DNA from: Seleniivibrio woodruffii
GTDB lineage: Bacteria > Chrysiogenota > Deferribacteres > Deferribacterales > Geovibrionaceae
DNA: 64,000 bases
Assembly: GCF_004339245.1 (NCBI RefSeq)
Contig: NZ_SMGG01000003.1
Location: forward strand, 1,178,770 to 1,242,769
Direction: 5' to 3'
Position numbers and translations under genes: made by a program. Each line of letters begins with the position of its first letter. Position 1 is the stretch's first letter. This document shows positions 4,252 through 59,775 of the stretch, piece by piece. The notes below the pieces were generated by a model. That model worked only from the letters and a program-made list of their open reading frames with translations, ran no database searches and was not told the origin of the DNA.

Positions 4252-4412
4252 CCGTCGGCGCATTACTGCGTCAATCTATTCGGAGATTATTTCATATGGA
4301 TCCATACAGCCTTCGGCTTGAGACTCTTCGGCTTATGCCTCAGAGTGACGATTTATAGGTAAAACTTTCCACGTCACTGCGAACGAAGTGAAGCAGTCCC
4401 AACTCAGCATGA
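4252..4412. repeat. intergenic dispersed-repeat fragments
   Basis: This gene-free stretch holds pieces of families seen elsewhere in the window: a half-copy of the nested palindrome (GGCGCATTACTGCGTCA at about 4258-4274), a CAGCCTTCGGCTTGAGACTC piece like the one near 15610, and a CACTGCGAACGAAGTGAAGC copy at about 4376-4395. Confidence 0.7.
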
Positions 4413-7198: not shown

Positions 7199-9016
7199 AT
7201 GCTTAAAAACATGAAACTTTCTAAAAAACTTTATCTCGGATTCGGAATCGTTCTGTTCCTTCTCGTTGTTGTAGGATTCATAAGCTATTCAAAAATAATG
7301 GTGGTGGCGAGCGAAGCCAGAAAAATGGACGCTATTTCAAACGTCCAGAACGCAATATATGAAGCCAGACTGGCAAGATATATGTACAGTTCCACAGGTG
7401 ATGAGGCATTTGCTCAGAAGACAGAAGAGCAGCTTCAACTGGCGTTTAAACTGGTTGACGGAGCCGTTCAGACCTATCCTGACATGAAGAATAATCAGAA
7501 CATAAGCGAGATGATGACTCTCGTTTCAAGCTATCAGAATGAATTCAATAAATTCAAGGCCGCTCAGGAGCTGAAAAAGTCAAACTATACTGAAATGACA
7601 AACTCAGCCAGAAATGCCCTTGCTGAGGCAGCAAATTCCGGAGAGGAGGGGGTTGCGAAGCTCCTTACCCTCATGCGTATCGATGCTCTCAGATTTATGA
7701 ACGACTCAGACCCTGCAAACCTTAAAGAGTTTGAAAAGCACTACAGCTCAGCTGTTGCGGCAGGTGCCGGAAATCAGAGAATCCTTGCTGACCTTAACAG
7801 TTATAAAGAAGATTTTGACAAATGGGTCAACGCTTTCAATACCCAGGTAGACATTCAGGCAGAGCTGGTTAAAGCCGCACAGAAAGCTCAGGCGCTCAGT
7901 ATCGTTGTTGTTGAAGAATACAAAAACGAAATGGACTCCAGCATCTCAACGGCTGTTGTGGTTATAATAGTATTCTCGATTGCGGCTGTTGCCCTTGGCA
8001 TCTTTATTTCGGTGCTTATAACCCGTTCGGTCACAGTGCCCATGGGTCAGGCGATAGATTTCGCAGCCCACCTTTCAAAAGGCGATTTCTCCAAACCTCT
8101 TGATATTAAACAGCAGGACGAAATAGGCCATCTTGCTTCGGCTATGGAGGAGATGAGGCTGAAACTGAAAGAGATAATAGAGGGTATAATAATGTCCGCA
8201 GGCTCCCTTGCCTCCGGCAGTACAGAACTTGCCAGCACCACAGAGGAACTGGCCACGACCTTCTCCGATCAGGCTCAGCAGGTTTCATCAGTGGCATCGG
8301 CTGTTGAGGAGATAAGCACATCTTCAAGACTGGTCATGGATTCGATACATGAGGTATCCGATAAGTCACAGTCGGCAAAACAGCTGACAACGGAAGGCCA
8401 AAACAACATAGTGTCTGCCAACGAAGTTATGGCGGAAATTAACAAGAGCGTCGGCGAACTCAGCACAACTGTCGCCGGACTGGCAAAATCATCAGAAGAC
8501 ATAGGAAGCATTCTGCTGGTTATAAACGATATAGCCGACCAGACAAACCTTCTGGCTCTTAACGCCGCAATTGAGGCCGCAAGAGCAGGCGACCACGGAC
8601 GGGGTTTTGCAGTTGTTGCAGACGAGGTTCGTAAACTGGCGGAGCGCACTCAGCAGTCAACAGAGGAGATCAAGACCATAATCTCCCAGTTCATAAAAGA
8701 GACAGCCAGAACCAACAAAGAGATGGCCGAGGCCGGCAGAAAGGTTCAGGACGGTGCAAACAAGCTGGATGCAGTTGACAGGATCTTTGAAAAGATCGTG
8801 GATTCTGTGAACGAAATATCCACCGCCAGCGGAATGATAACCAGTGCCGTGGGCGAACAGTCGCAGGCCATAGCTAACATAAACGACAATGCTCAGGTCA
8901 TATCAAGCGGTCTGGAGCAGAGCACAGCGGCCATTACGCAGGTTTCCCATACTGTTGCCGATCTGCAGAAGCAGGCGGATGATCAGATGGAGGGCACAAG
9001 AATATTCAAAATCTAA
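7199..9016 (+). CDS. methyl-accepting chemotaxis protein, helical sensor domain
   Basis: The 605-residue receptor starts [16 protein letters not shown], followed by membrane segment 1 (about 11-31), a 225-residue all-helical periplasmic domain of the size expected for a helical bimodular (HBM) sensor, membrane segment 2 (about 255-278), HAMP and a full signalling domain ([31 protein letters not shown]). HBM receptors such as McpS detect TCA-cycle acids; ligand is not predictable here. The ATG at 7199 follows GAGGTG at 7189-7194 and matches the start of the paralogue at 34766. The two share the N-terminal motif and overall plan, so they are in-genome paralogues. Confidence 0.94.
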
Positions 9017-9139
9017 GGCAGCGGTTATAACGCTTCGCATTTCGGTGTTGTCATTGAAAAAATCTTAATCATGTACATTCGTGTACACTCATGCGATTTT
9101 TTCAACTCCGCCTTGAACTGCTCGGTTCTAACCACTGCC
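9017..9139. repeat. nested palindromic intergenic element, copy A
   Basis: Directly after the chemoreceptor stop lie three nested inverted repeats: outer arms GGCAGCGGTTATAAC (9017-9031) and GTTCTAACCACTGCC (9125-9139); middle arms TTGAAAAAATC (9054-9064) and GATTTTTTCAA (9095-9105); central hairpin TGTACA-TTCG-TGTACA (9072-9087). The spacer after the middle arm holds CCGCCTTGAACTGCTCGG. Copies B (15201-15319) and C (46833-46948) have the same plan with different arm sequences. A further half-copy, CGCATTTCGGCGTTGTCAT, follows at about 9159-9177. Confidence 0.85.
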
Positions 9140-9186
9140 GATATGCTGAGAAGATCCTCGCATTTCGGCGTTGTCATAAAAACAGC

Positions 9187-13328: not shown

Positions 13329-14561
13329 ATGGAAGAAAGCAAGCTGAAGACCATGCTAATCGGTGTGCAGATGCTGTTCGTTGCTTTCGGAGCACTGGTT
13401 CTTGTTCCCCTGCTTACGGGGCTTGATCCTTCAATCGCACTTTTCACTGCCGGTGCGGGTACGCTCCTTTTTCAGCTTATCACAAAACGGATGGTTCCCG
13501 TTTTTCTGGCAAGCTCATTTGCATTCATTGCGCCGATTCAGTTCGGTGTTAAAGAGTTCGGTGTCGGCGCCACTCTCGGGGGTCTTGCATGTGCAGGACT
13601 TGCATATCTTGTATTCAGCGTTATGGTTAAAATCGGCGGAGTTGAAGCTATTGAAAAATATCTTCCCGCAATAGTCACAGGCCCCGTTATAATGGTTATC
13701 GGTCTCAACCTTGCCCCCGTTGCGGTCAAAATGGCAAAAAGTTTTGACGGATCAGGAAACTATGACGGCAAAGCAATGACCATTGCAATGATATCGCTTT
13801 TAACGGCAATACTCACAGTTGTTTACGGTAAAAAAATCCTCAGCCTGATCCCTATTCTTATAGGCATAATTGTTGGTTATGTTGTTTCACTTTTTATGGG
13901 CGTTGTCAGCTTTCAGCCCATTTCAGATGCCGGATGGCTGGTTAACCCCTGGTCGGTCGCCATTGCAAACGGATCATATGCATTGCCCGTTTTTGATATA
14001 GCAGCAATACTTTACATCGTTCCCGTAGCAATCGCTCCCGCTATTGAGCACGTCGGGGATGTTCTTGCGATCTCAAATGTTTCCGGCAAAAACTATCTGA
14101 AAAATCCCGGCCTCCACAGAACTCTTCTTGGTGACGGCCTTGCCACATCTCTTGCAAGCCTTCTGGGCGGTCCTCCCAACACTACATATTCTGAAGTTAC
14201 AGGAGCCGTAGCTCTTACAAAATCATATAAAGTTGTGTATATGACAATCGCCGCATGTACGGCTATTGTTCTTGCCTTCGTGGGCAAACTCGGCGCAGTG
14301 CTTAAGACTATCCCTGTTCCCGTTATGGGCGGTATCATGATCCTGCTTTTCGGTATGATCGCCGCAATCGGCATAGGTACTGTTGTTCGTGAGCGTGTGG
14401 ATATGTCCAAAGCCCGCAACCTCATTATTGCGTCGGTTATCCTTGTTGTCGGCATCGGCAACCTCAGCTTCACTCTGGGGGGAGTTACCATCGGCGGGAT
14501 CGGTCTTGCAGGCATAGTTGGCGTTATCCTGAACTTAATACTCCCTAAGGACAAAGAATGA
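13329..14561 (+). CDS. uraA: uracil/xanthine permease (NCS2 family)
   Basis: The 410-residue protein is an NCS2 nucleobase symporter with about 12-14 membrane segments. The motif around residue 240 ([17 protein letters not shown]) contains the conserved substrate-site glutamate, and [10 protein letters not shown] is the family signature of the second repeat. Coupling with the uracil phosphoribosyltransferase gene by a 4-base ATGA overlap strongly suggests uracil as the substrate. GGAGG lies at about 13317-13321. Confidence 0.93.
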
Positions 14562-15193
14562 ACTACCCCAATTTTACAGTAATCAGTCACCCGCTTATTG
14601 AGCACAAGCTGACCTTTATCAGAGATCTCACCACACCTAAAAAAGGCTTTAAGGAGCTTGTGGACGAGGTTGCAATGCTTATGGCGTATGAGATAACAAA
14701 AGACTTCCCTCTGGAAGAGGTTGAGATCGAAACACCCATCTGCAAAACGAAAACAAGAATAGTTTCAGGTAAAAAAGTTGTTCTGGTTCCCATTCTGCGT
14801 GCGGGTCTGGGTATGGTGGACGGCATTCTGAAGCTTATTCCCTCTGCCCGTGTTGGACATATAGGTCTTTACAGAGACCACGAAACGCTCCAGCCCGTTT
14901 CCTATTACTTCAAGATCCCCCCTCAGAGCGAGGACAGGGATTTTATACTCATCGACCCCATGCTTGCCACAGGCGGTTCCGCTATTGCGGCCGTTGACAA
15001 GCTGAAAGAGGTCGGTGTTAAAAATATCAAGTTCATGTGTCTGATAGCCGCTCCGGAAGGGGTTAAGGCTTTCTGCGAGGCACACCCCGATGTTAAGGTG
15101 TTTGCCGCAGGGCTTGATGAGAAGCTGAACGAGAACGGGTATATAGTGCCCGGGCTGGGAGATGCCGGCGACAGGTTGTTCGGAACAAAATAA
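14558..15193 (+). CDS. upp: uracil phosphoribosyltransferase
   Basis: The 211-residue protein matches Upp throughout: [12 protein letters not shown], the PRPP-binding loop [11 protein letters not shown] and the uracil-binding C-terminal [12 protein letters not shown]. It makes UMP from uracil and PRPP, trapping the base imported by the adjacent permease. The genes overlap by 4 bases. Transcription probably ends in element B just downstream (15201-15319), since no separate poly-T terminator is seen. Confidence 0.97.
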
Positions 15194-15200
15194 TTTTATT

Positions 15201-15319
15201 GGCGGTTATATGCGTCGCATTACGGCGTCAGACCATTTTTCGGAACTGCTCACATACATTTTTCGTATGCTCGCAGCCCGCTCAAAAGGTCTTTCTTGTA
15301 CTGCTCGCATATAACCGCC
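15201..15319. repeat. nested palindromic intergenic element, copy B
   Basis: Outer arms GGCGGTTATATGCG (15201-15214) and CGCATATAACCGCC (15306-15319) are perfectly complementary. Middle arms AGACC (15230-15234) and GGTCT (15288-15292) and a central hairpin CATAC/GTATG (15253-15269) lie within. It begins 8 bases after the upp stop. The conserved ACTGCTCG follows the right middle arm, as in copies A and C. Confidence 0.85.
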
Positions 15320-15346
15320 AAGTTTAAGACATCGTTTTTCAGTATT

Positions 15347-26139: not shown

Positions 26140-26212
26140 GCGGGTATAGCTCAGTTGGTAGAGCGCGACCTTGCCAAGGTTGAGGTCACCGGTTCGAGTC
26201 CGGCTACCCGCT
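26140..26212 (+). tRNA. tRNA-Gly (anticodon GCC), copy 1
   Basis: A 73-base cloverleaf: acceptor GCGGGTA with TACCCGC, D-arm with AGCTCAGTTGGTAGAGC, anticodon loop TTGCCAA (GCC), T-arm GGTTCGAGTCC. CCA is not encoded. It is identical over its full length to the copy at 33841-33913. Confidence 0.97.
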
Positions 26213-26222
26213 TTTTCAGACA

Positions 26223-26253
26223 GACCGGTTCGTTTTTCGCCGGTCTTTTTTTT
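26223..26253 (+). terminator. terminator between tRNA-Gly and tRNA-Cys
   Basis: GACCGG and CCGGTC form the stem around a T-rich loop, followed by eight T residues. The tRNA-Cys 6 bases later must therefore rely on readthrough or its own promoter; none is obvious in the short gap. Confidence 0.85.
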
Positions 26254-26258
26254 CTAAT

Positions 26259-26332
26259 GGCGACGTGGCCGAGTGGTTAGGCATCGGACTGCAAATCCGC
26301 GTACCCCAGTTCGATTCTGGGCGTCGCCTCCA
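26259..26332 (+). tRNA. tRNA-Cys (anticodon GCA)
   Basis: Acceptor GGCGACG with CGTCGCC, D-arm GGCCGAGTGGTTAGGC, anticodon stem-loop with CTGCAAA (GCA), T-arm with CCCAGTTCGATTCTGGG, and an encoded CCA at 26330-26332. Confidence 0.96.
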
Positions 26333-33840: not shown

Positions 33841-33913
33841 GCGGGTATAGCTCAGTTGGTAGAGCGCGACCTTGCCAAGGTTGAGGTCACCGGTTCGAGT
33901 CCGGCTACCCGCT
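33841..33913 (+). tRNA. tRNA-Gly (anticodon GCC), copy 2
   Basis: Identical over all 73 bases to 26140-26212. The promoter boxes are also shared, but flanks beyond them differ, so it looks like an old gene duplication under selection rather than a fresh repeat. Confidence 0.97.
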
Positions 33914-42521: not shown

Positions 42522-42960
42522 GGTTGTTATATGCTTCGCATTGCTGCGTCACCTAAACACCGATGGCTTTTTCCCGTCTCTGCGAGGAGCAGGGCGACGC
42601 GGCAGTCTCATCTGTTGAGATTGCCACAGCCCTTCGGGCTTCTCAATGACGCAAAATTCCCCGTCTCTGCGAACGGAGTGAAGCAGTCTTCCACCTTCAG
42701 ACAGCCCGCCGCTTCAGCAAATTGCGCAAAATCTGCCGTCACCTAAACACCGATGGCTTTTTCCCGTCTCTGCGAGGAGCAGGGCGACGCGGCAGTCTCA
42801 TCTGTTGAGATTGCCACAGCCCTTCGGGCTTCTCAATGACGCAAAATTCCCCGTCTCTGCGAACGGAGTGAAGCAGTCTTCCAACTCCAGCTAGCCCGCC
42901 GCTTTGGCAAATGCCCCGGAATCTACCGTCACCCTGAGGCGGCAGACGAAGGGTCTCAGC
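42522..42960. repeat. 190-bp tandem duplication within an intergenic repeat cluster
   Basis: Copy 1 (42548-42737) and copy 2 (42738-42927) are adjacent direct repeats of 190 bases starting GTCACCTAAACACCGATGGC. The first 146 bases are identical and the last 44 diverge. Each unit contains CTGCGAACGGAGTGAAGCAG and AGCCCGCCGCTT pieces of the dispersed family. A half-copy of the nested palindrome (GTTATATGCTTCGCATTGCT) precedes it at about 42526. No gene is visible in 42336-43052. Confidence 0.9.
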
Positions 42961-46284: not shown

Positions 46285-46797
46285 ATGCACGAGAAGAGTA
46301 TTGAGCTTCTTAACAAAGCGATAGCTGACGAGGTGGCAACACTCCACCAGTACATGTATTTTCATTTCCACTGCGATGATCAGGGATATGATCTGCTTGC
46401 GGCACTTTTCAAAAGAACCGCAATCGAAGAGATGATCCATGTGGAAAGACTTTCCGACAGGATCCTTTTCCTGAACGGCGAGATAGAGCTGAAAGCCTCT
46501 CACGACGTCGTTAAAGAGCGTAATGTCGGAAAAATGCTCGACATGGCAAAAGCTATGGAAGAGCAGAGCGCAAAGGACTACAACAGATGGGCAAACGAGT
46601 GTTCTGCTAATGCGGACTCTGTTTCGAAAAAACTTTTCGAAGCCCTTGTTGAGGACGAAGAGCGTCACTTTGACCAGTTCGACGACGAAAGGGAGAACAT
46701 GAACCGTTTCGGCGAAAACTATCTGGCTCTCCAGTCCATTGAAAGAAGTAAAACCCGTTCCACACTTCCTCCTGTAGGAAGCGGAGGAGCAGAGTAA
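46285..46797 (+). CDS. bfr: bacterioferritin-like iron storage protein
   Basis: The 170-residue four-helix protein has the di-iron ligands of ferritins: LNKAIADEVATLHQYMYF (Glu), AIEEMIHVERL (Glu and His of E-x2-H) and LVEDEERHFDQF (second E-x2-H). It oxidises and stores iron. The heme-binding methionine region of classical Bfr is not clear, and the C-terminal tail (SKTRSTLPPVGSGG) is low-complexity and atypical. AGGAGG lies 6 bases before the ATG. Confidence 0.87.
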   Translation: MHEKSIELLNKAIADEVATLHQYMYFHFHCDDQGYDLLAALFKRTAIEEMIHVERLSDRILFLNGEIELKASHDVVKERNVGKMLDMAKAMEEQSAKDYNRWANECSANADSVSKKLFEALVEDEERHFDQFDDERENMNRFGENYLALQSIERSKTRSTLPPVGSGGAE

Positions 46798-46803
46798 AAG
46801 ATT

Positions 46804-46832
46804 AAGGGCTCGCATTTGCGGGCCCTTTTTTT
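46804..46832 (+). terminator. bacterioferritin terminator
   Basis: AAGGGCTCGC and GCGGGCCCTT pair with one mismatch and a short loop, followed by TTTTT. Confidence 0.85.
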
Positions 46833-46948
46833 GTCTTTTATAACGCATAGTATTTCTTCGTTGTCCTCTGAAAAATTATCCTCACGTATTTCAATATACG
46901 CTCGTCAATTTTTCCTCGTCCGCCTTGAACTACTCGGTTCTAAAAGAC
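46833..46948. repeat. nested palindromic intergenic element, copy C
   Basis: Outer arms GTCTTTTA (46833-46840) and TAAAAGAC (46941-46948), middle arms GAAAAATT (46870-46877) and AATTTTTC (46907-46914), central CGTAT/ATACG (46885-46900). CCGCCTTGAACTACTCGGTT matches copy A between the right middle and outer arms. It directly follows the bfr terminator. Confidence 0.85.
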
Positions 46949-46964
46949 AAAAGGGATAATGACT

Positions 46965-59622: not shown

Positions 59623-59775
59623 ATGAAACAGTTTTTCGTTGTGTTTGGCGGAGTGTTCGTTGCTGTGGCGTTTTTTTCGCTGGTGCTTTTCATGCGGCGG
59701 AAAAAAAGCTCGTGCAGATGCGGGCAGGGACACTGCCAGACAGGCACCAAATGCGACTCGGATACGGATAAATAA
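59623..59775 (+). CDS. NqrM-like cysteine-rich membrane protein
   Basis: A 50-residue protein with one membrane helix (about 4-24, MKQFFVVFGGVFVAVAFFSL) and a C-terminal tail with four cysteines (SSCRCGQGHC and TKC). NqrM has this size and layout and helps to place iron in the NqrD/E centre. It starts 1 base after nqrF's stop, the normal place for nqrM. The FeoB-associated Cys-rich family looks alike, but feoB is absent here. Confidence 0.75.
   Translation: MKQFFVVFGGVFVAVAFFSLVLFMRRKKSSCRCGQGHCQTGTKCDSDTDK

Follow-up and report, generated by a model that had tools for sequence, protein, structure and literature searches.

A dispersed nested palindrome of Seleniivibrio with covarying arms, possibly a REPIN-like mobile DNA

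A nested palindrome of about 120 bases is dispersed in many copies in the genomes of Seleniivibrio (Deferribacterota), and its arms differ from copy to copy while staying complementary. The element stands mostly at the 3' ends of genes and follows the direction of replication. That it belongs to a family of short, non-coding and non-autonomous mobile DNA of the MITE/REPIN type, acting as a folded strand, has in our estimate about even chances. The window, i.e., the whole 64-kb stretch of DNA that was analysed, contains three full copies and three left-half copies (Table 1).

Copies, anatomy and distribution

A sequence-only reading of the window had proposed three nested copies of one plan, at 9017-9139, 15201-15319 and 46833-46948. 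All three are present on the + strand with scores of 137, 134 and 92 bits, which are high by construction as the covariance model was built with those copies; the next distinct place in the window reaches 11 bits. The common plan stood, with two corrections: copy 2 belongs to a different subfamily, and copy 3 has longer outer arms than proposed. All three copies fold better than their dinucleotide shuffles, whichever strand is taken (z -2.6 to -8.9).

From outside in, the element consists of outer arms with hypervariable yet complementary positions, a box TTATAAC/GTTCTAA or TTATATG/CATCTAA containing a T.C mismatch, an unpaired spacer, a box GCATTTC/GAACTGC or GCATTAC/GTACTGC with a second T.C mismatch, conserved internal loops (CGTTG or CGTCAG on the left, CCTTG on the right), an inner stem and a small apical hairpin. 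There are two main subfamilies, A and B, plus mosaics. At its orthologous site, the congener G003 has an element with 89% identity to copy 2. The half-copies suspected near 4258, 9159 and 42526 exist as left cores. Their interpretation as decay applies only in part, as the one at 9157 closes, as an incomplete unit, a tandem structure that relatives have too.

Table 1 Elements, adjoining genes and other repeats in the window
Feature	Position	Strand	Remarks
Copy 1, complete element, subfamily A	9017..9139	+	Sequence, folding, covariance model
Copy 1, outer arms	9017-9031/9125-9139
Copy 1, inner box	9037-9043/9115-9121
Copy 1, inner arms	9054-9064/9095-9105
Copy 1, apical hairpin	9072-9076/9083-9087
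Copy 2, subfamily B	15199..15321	+	Perfect 16-bp outer arms 15199-15214/15306-15321
Copy 3, subfamily A	46829..46952	+	Directly 3' of terminator; compensatory change in inner box (GTATTTC/GAACTAC)
Left-core half copy, subfamily B type	4257..4272	+	3' of terminator
Left-core half copy, subfamily B type	42523..42550	+	3' of terminator
Trailing left-core half copy	9157..9175	+	Near-identical left core behind orthologous element in congener
Methyl-accepting chemotaxis protein (host gene of copy 1)	7199..9016	+	Stop codon adjoins element
Uracil phosphoribosyltransferase (host gene of copy 2)	14558..15193	+
Ferritin-like protein (host gene of copy 3)	46285..46797	+	Followed by intrinsic terminator, then element
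Second repeat, CGTCACTGCGA...GCAGTCT	4372, 38397, 42575, 42662, 42765, 42852, 46968, 52477, 52754
Third repeat, GTCATTCTGA...GAATCTCA	9217, 15535, 42928, 50492, 52612, 52777	+; others -
tRNA-Gly (two copies), tRNA-Cys and tRNA-Lys genes	26140-26332, 33841-33913, 59640-59733		Unlinked to elements

Copy 1 matched 18 places (blastn), and the covariance model R1 was built from 18 copies. The genome search recommended by the earlier reading gave 49 copies with R1, throughout the 2.9-Mb genome of the window; the element is therefore not a chance occurrence. Three congeners have 45, 44 and 37 copies and the fourth, G002, has one. Another genus of the same family carries 16 and 3 copies in two of three genomes (R1). 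Across the order, the occurrence is patchy: one genus has 1-3 copies per genome, most genomes have none, and G028, which belongs to another family than Seleniivibrio, has 44 versus 0-1 in the rest of its family. An 18-base exact pattern also matched assemblies of gut Clostridia, with the whole element at eight of these loci. Among relatives of one Clostridia carrier, the element is found in 33 of 61, with up to 35 copies. Seleniivibrio and gut Clostridia have identical core ends, up to about 26 nt on one side and 23 nt on the other, around different interiors. No match was found in IMG/VR patterns, phages or plasmids, and a phage or plasmid origin was rejected on these grounds.

Covariation and pairing of the arms

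Covariation was compared with 500 shuffles each in three host groups (Seleniivibrio, Clostridia, G028), and the proposal that the arms change while remaining complementary was borne out. Alignments A2 to A4 were fitted to the covariance model and thus lean towards structure: in Seleniivibrio (A2, 63 copies), 88.6% of the cells are standard pairs and 430 are double-changed versus 136 in shuffles (reached by 0 of 500); in Clostridia (A3, 41 distinct copies), the double-changed cells number 288 versus 102; and in G028 (A4, 26 copies), 113 versus 24, with 98.5% of cells paired and no one-sided changes. The same pattern appeared in a plain MAFFT alignment of 18 copies (A1; 92.4% standard pairs, 66 double-changed cells versus 19). 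Sliding the partner columns by 1-3 abolished the covariation. Even the supposedly conserved inner helix varies in step, from GCATTTC/GAACTGC to GTATTTC/GAACTAC in the copy at 46833 and to GCATTAC/GTACTGC in that at 15201. At orthologous sites, pairs mostly change together (66 double Watson-Crick changes), partly by replacement of whole segments and not by point mutation. Pairing survives double changes among the aligned copies, including orthologous ones, and this supports selection for the structure. The first reading had proposed such selection for either RNA or a cruciform; DNA is favoured here.

G.T pairs make up about 1-2% of cells in Seleniivibrio and 0 of 857 in the 26 copies of G028, where 844 of 857 cells are Watson-Crick. 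In a small control, 9 tRNA sequences of these genomes, folded at minimum energy, contained 16% G.U. The two T.C mismatches, G.A on the bottom strand, are conserved across phyla; the T.C mismatch is kept in 56/63 copies in Seleniivibrio, 37/40 in Clostridia and 23/26 in G028. The bottom strand is the better folder in 63/63, 40/41 and 26/26 copies, respectively, and composition explains about 1.3 of the 5.2 kcal/mol between the strands. This asymmetry is stronger evidence for the bottom strand than the excess of A.C over G.T on the top strand in Seleniivibrio (47 versus 19), a weak support that hinges on one column (22 versus 18 without it). Because G.T is almost lacking, copies lie beyond terminators and one host has both orientations, the data fit pairing as DNA and not as RNA.

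Genomic position, replication polarity and history

The surroundings of the copies were surveyed in 20-kb stretches with a simple coding-potential gene caller. A gene on the same strand precedes 54 of 61 copies: 29 are located at most 12 nt from the stop codon, another 20 stand behind a recognisable terminator, and 5 are others. Two further copies follow 5S rRNA, and 56 of the 63 Seleniivibrio copies adjoin the end of a transcription unit. In the window, the position just after a stop codon or terminator was confirmed, with copy 1 beginning directly 3' of the TAA at 9014-9016, copy 2 located 5 nt 3' of a TAA and copy 3 following a terminator. A terminator as obligatory target was rejected, since the 29 copies adjoin a stop codon with no terminator between. 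At L107 and L111 (contig ends), the element stands directly 3' of 5S in both sampled rRNA operon ends.

The element strand shows positive GC skew in 58/63 copies, versus 57% of gene ends with room as background (Fisher p = 1.8e-8). Of the seven copies without a same-strand gene ahead, six still follow this replication polarity. The 5S genes read in the skew direction, in agreement with positive skew marking the leading strand; therefore, the bottom strand, the more stable of the two, is on the template of the leading strand. For attC sites in large chromosomal integrons, the stable strand was likewise reported to lie mostly there (PMC5371416). Biased insertion or the loss of oppositely oriented copies could each produce the polarity. 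G028 has copies in either orientation, typically in the gap that separates a stop codon from the start of the next gene. At the G028 loci L203-L222, the outer arm reads TAAAA...TTTTA, and whichever way the element points, its end provides the TAA stop of the neighbouring gene or overlaps with it.

Twelve of 25 sampled G003 copies occupy sites that are also occupied in G000, and about five of these shared sites differ in subfamily. Further sites hold an element in G000 but none in G003. At three sites compared in five species (L101), G002 lacks the element throughout; one site retained the outer arms with a switched interior, and at the others A and B elements are found side by side. The units of the tandem arrays measure about 118 bp, and a left-core fragment often closes the array. 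Three to four elements follow each other head to tail at L181 (G004:C7), L182 (G004:C16) and L120 (G003:C13 90.8-91.2 kb); there, the left outer arm is missing from the later units. Between unlinked Seleniivibrio copies, similarity does not exceed 91% (median 57%), and therefore no recent jump is seen. No clean target-site duplication was definable, though empty sites were found, and no larger copy with both cores occurred in about 860 kb. The arms were rejected as target-site copies, as their most variable positions lie between conserved ones.

Possible origin and relation to known systems

A REP-associated transposase, which the sequence-only reading had suggested looking for, is absent from the four carrier species: Y1/RAYT (PF01797) was missing from G000, G001, G003 and G004 and was rejected as driver. 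The only match in the five Seleniivibrio genomes is in G002, where the element has its single copy. Integron integrase (TIGR02249) was rejected as well, with nothing above the cut-off in 5 genomes, as was a reverse transcriptase with group IIC-like terminator targeting (PF00078, present only in G000 among the four carriers).

The MITEs ERIC, BOX, Correia/NEMIS and bcr1 are, like the element, non-coding palindromic intergenic repeats of about 100-200 bp. Unlike them, the element has hypervariable yet strictly complementary arms and a polarity that follows replication. REPIN/REP sequences with RAYT (IS200/IS605-like; PMC3116915) resemble the element in several respects: they, too, are extragenic and numerous, their two conserved core ends stand inverted around a variable spacer so that a long hairpin forms, their changes are compensatory, and they occur in tandem clusters as well as in single halves left as remnants. 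The element differs in being a longer nested unit (about 120 bp), in its strong replication polarity, in the core common to Deferribacterota and Clostridia and in its four Seleniivibrio carriers without RAYT. No constant GTAG-type tag stands beside the arms in 63 copies, and the right flank is weakly purine-rich. CGTC-tagged REPs (PMC3733652) are likewise palindromic, located downstream of coding regions and without a known dedicated transposase, but are 20-40 bp long. A second repeat, CGTCACTGCGA...GCAGTCT, resembles them; it often lies directly downstream of the element genome-wide, yet is separate from it. A third repeat, GTCATTCTGA...GAATCTCA, is mixed with both in the same intergenic regions.

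Integron attC sites (PMC5371416) are similar in that a single strand folds up with boxes that pair and positions that do not, the bottom strand is the better folder, and the location is 3' of a stop codon, in addition to the strand placement described above. In contrast, the element has no integron integrase, is dispersed singly and includes the outer arms. It does not follow RYYYAAC...GTTRRRY, as the pairs at 20-21/126-127 vary (AAC/GTT, ATG/CAT, ATA/TAT). We do not assign the element to REP/REPIN or attC, since defining features were tested and are lacking. The inverted conserved ends and the spacer as hairpin, a REP/REPIN feature, are present. IS1272-like stem-loop replacement (PMC5678879) is similar in spirit and was rejected with no evidence for it here; intrastrand triplex repeats (PMC4666352) are another, shorter motif without strand bias. 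No curated Rfam family matched, and literature searches on covarying intergenic repeats, themselves incomplete, gave no description of the element family.

Arrays, half units, empty orthologous sites, patchiness and the core ends shared with Clostridia point to a REPIN-like mobile element. What matters would be a single DNA strand, probably the bottom strand, in the form of a long imperfect hairpin with two pyrimidine-pyrimidine mismatches (G.A on the bottom strand), which a putative structure-specific transposase or recombinase would recognise. The core and loops would be fixed in sequence; elsewhere pairing alone would count, and the arms would therefore drift in complementary pairs. The polarity would reflect the survival of copies with the more stable strand off the lagging-strand template. 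Nevertheless, no enzyme, clean target-site duplication or recent jump was found, and about half of the sampled G003 sites are shared with G000, which also fits host retention. The main rival is such a host-maintained DNA structure, comparable to BIME/REP: an old repeat kept where leading-strand transcription units end (3'), whose hairpin or cruciform serves topology, nucleoid protein binding or replication-transcription conflicts and whose copies exchange sequence. The 56/63 copies at transcription-unit ends, the 58/63 co-oriented with replication and the element at each of the two sampled rRNA operon ends agree with it, as do the outer arms, which hold site identity while interiors switch subfamily, and the pairing retained at orthologous sites even where the spacers have diverged beyond alignment. 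We consider it rather unlikely, given that G002 lives with one copy, that the occurrence across the order is patchy, that G028 has copies between genes in both orientations, and that tandem arrays and half copies exist.

A functional RNA, i.e., a 3'UTR structure acting on stability or termination of the upstream mRNA, would explain the covarying stems, the upstream gene on the same strand in 54/61 and the frequent location directly 3' of the stop codon. However, many copies lie past the terminator (20) and G028 has both orientations, and therefore an RNA role is not required; the scarcity of G.U in the sense strand (1.3% where helices align well, 0 in G028), the weaker folding of that strand in 61/63 with RNA parameters and the absence of an Rfam match make this role quite improbable. 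Mutational upkeep without function, in which quasi-palindrome correction by template switching at the fork copies one arm onto the other, is very doubtful: such correction should erase the in-stem pyrimidine-pyrimidine mismatches, which persist across phyla while the flanking pairs change, and the loop and core sequences are conserved. It would account for double changes without wobble or one-sided intermediates, for the hypervariable but complementary outer arms and for the replication polarity.

More speculatively, and with some scepticism on our side, the mobile element could represent an undescribed mobile-DNA system common to Deferribacterota and gut Clostridia. Its folded single strand, bearing two near-obligatory purine-purine mismatches, would be read by an enzyme with no relation to either Y1 transposases or integron integrases, and its arms would serve as exchangeable, sequence-free pairing tags.

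The element is an apparently clear case of base-pair covariation at the level of DNA rather than RNA. Covariation alone is often counted as proof of RNA; this family suggests that it need not be and carries a built-in discriminator in the near lack of G.T, the conserved mismatches and the strand asymmetry. The set of orthologous sites can be used to study insertion, conversion and survival of hairpin repeats relative to the replication fork, and the element points to a putative moving enzyme.
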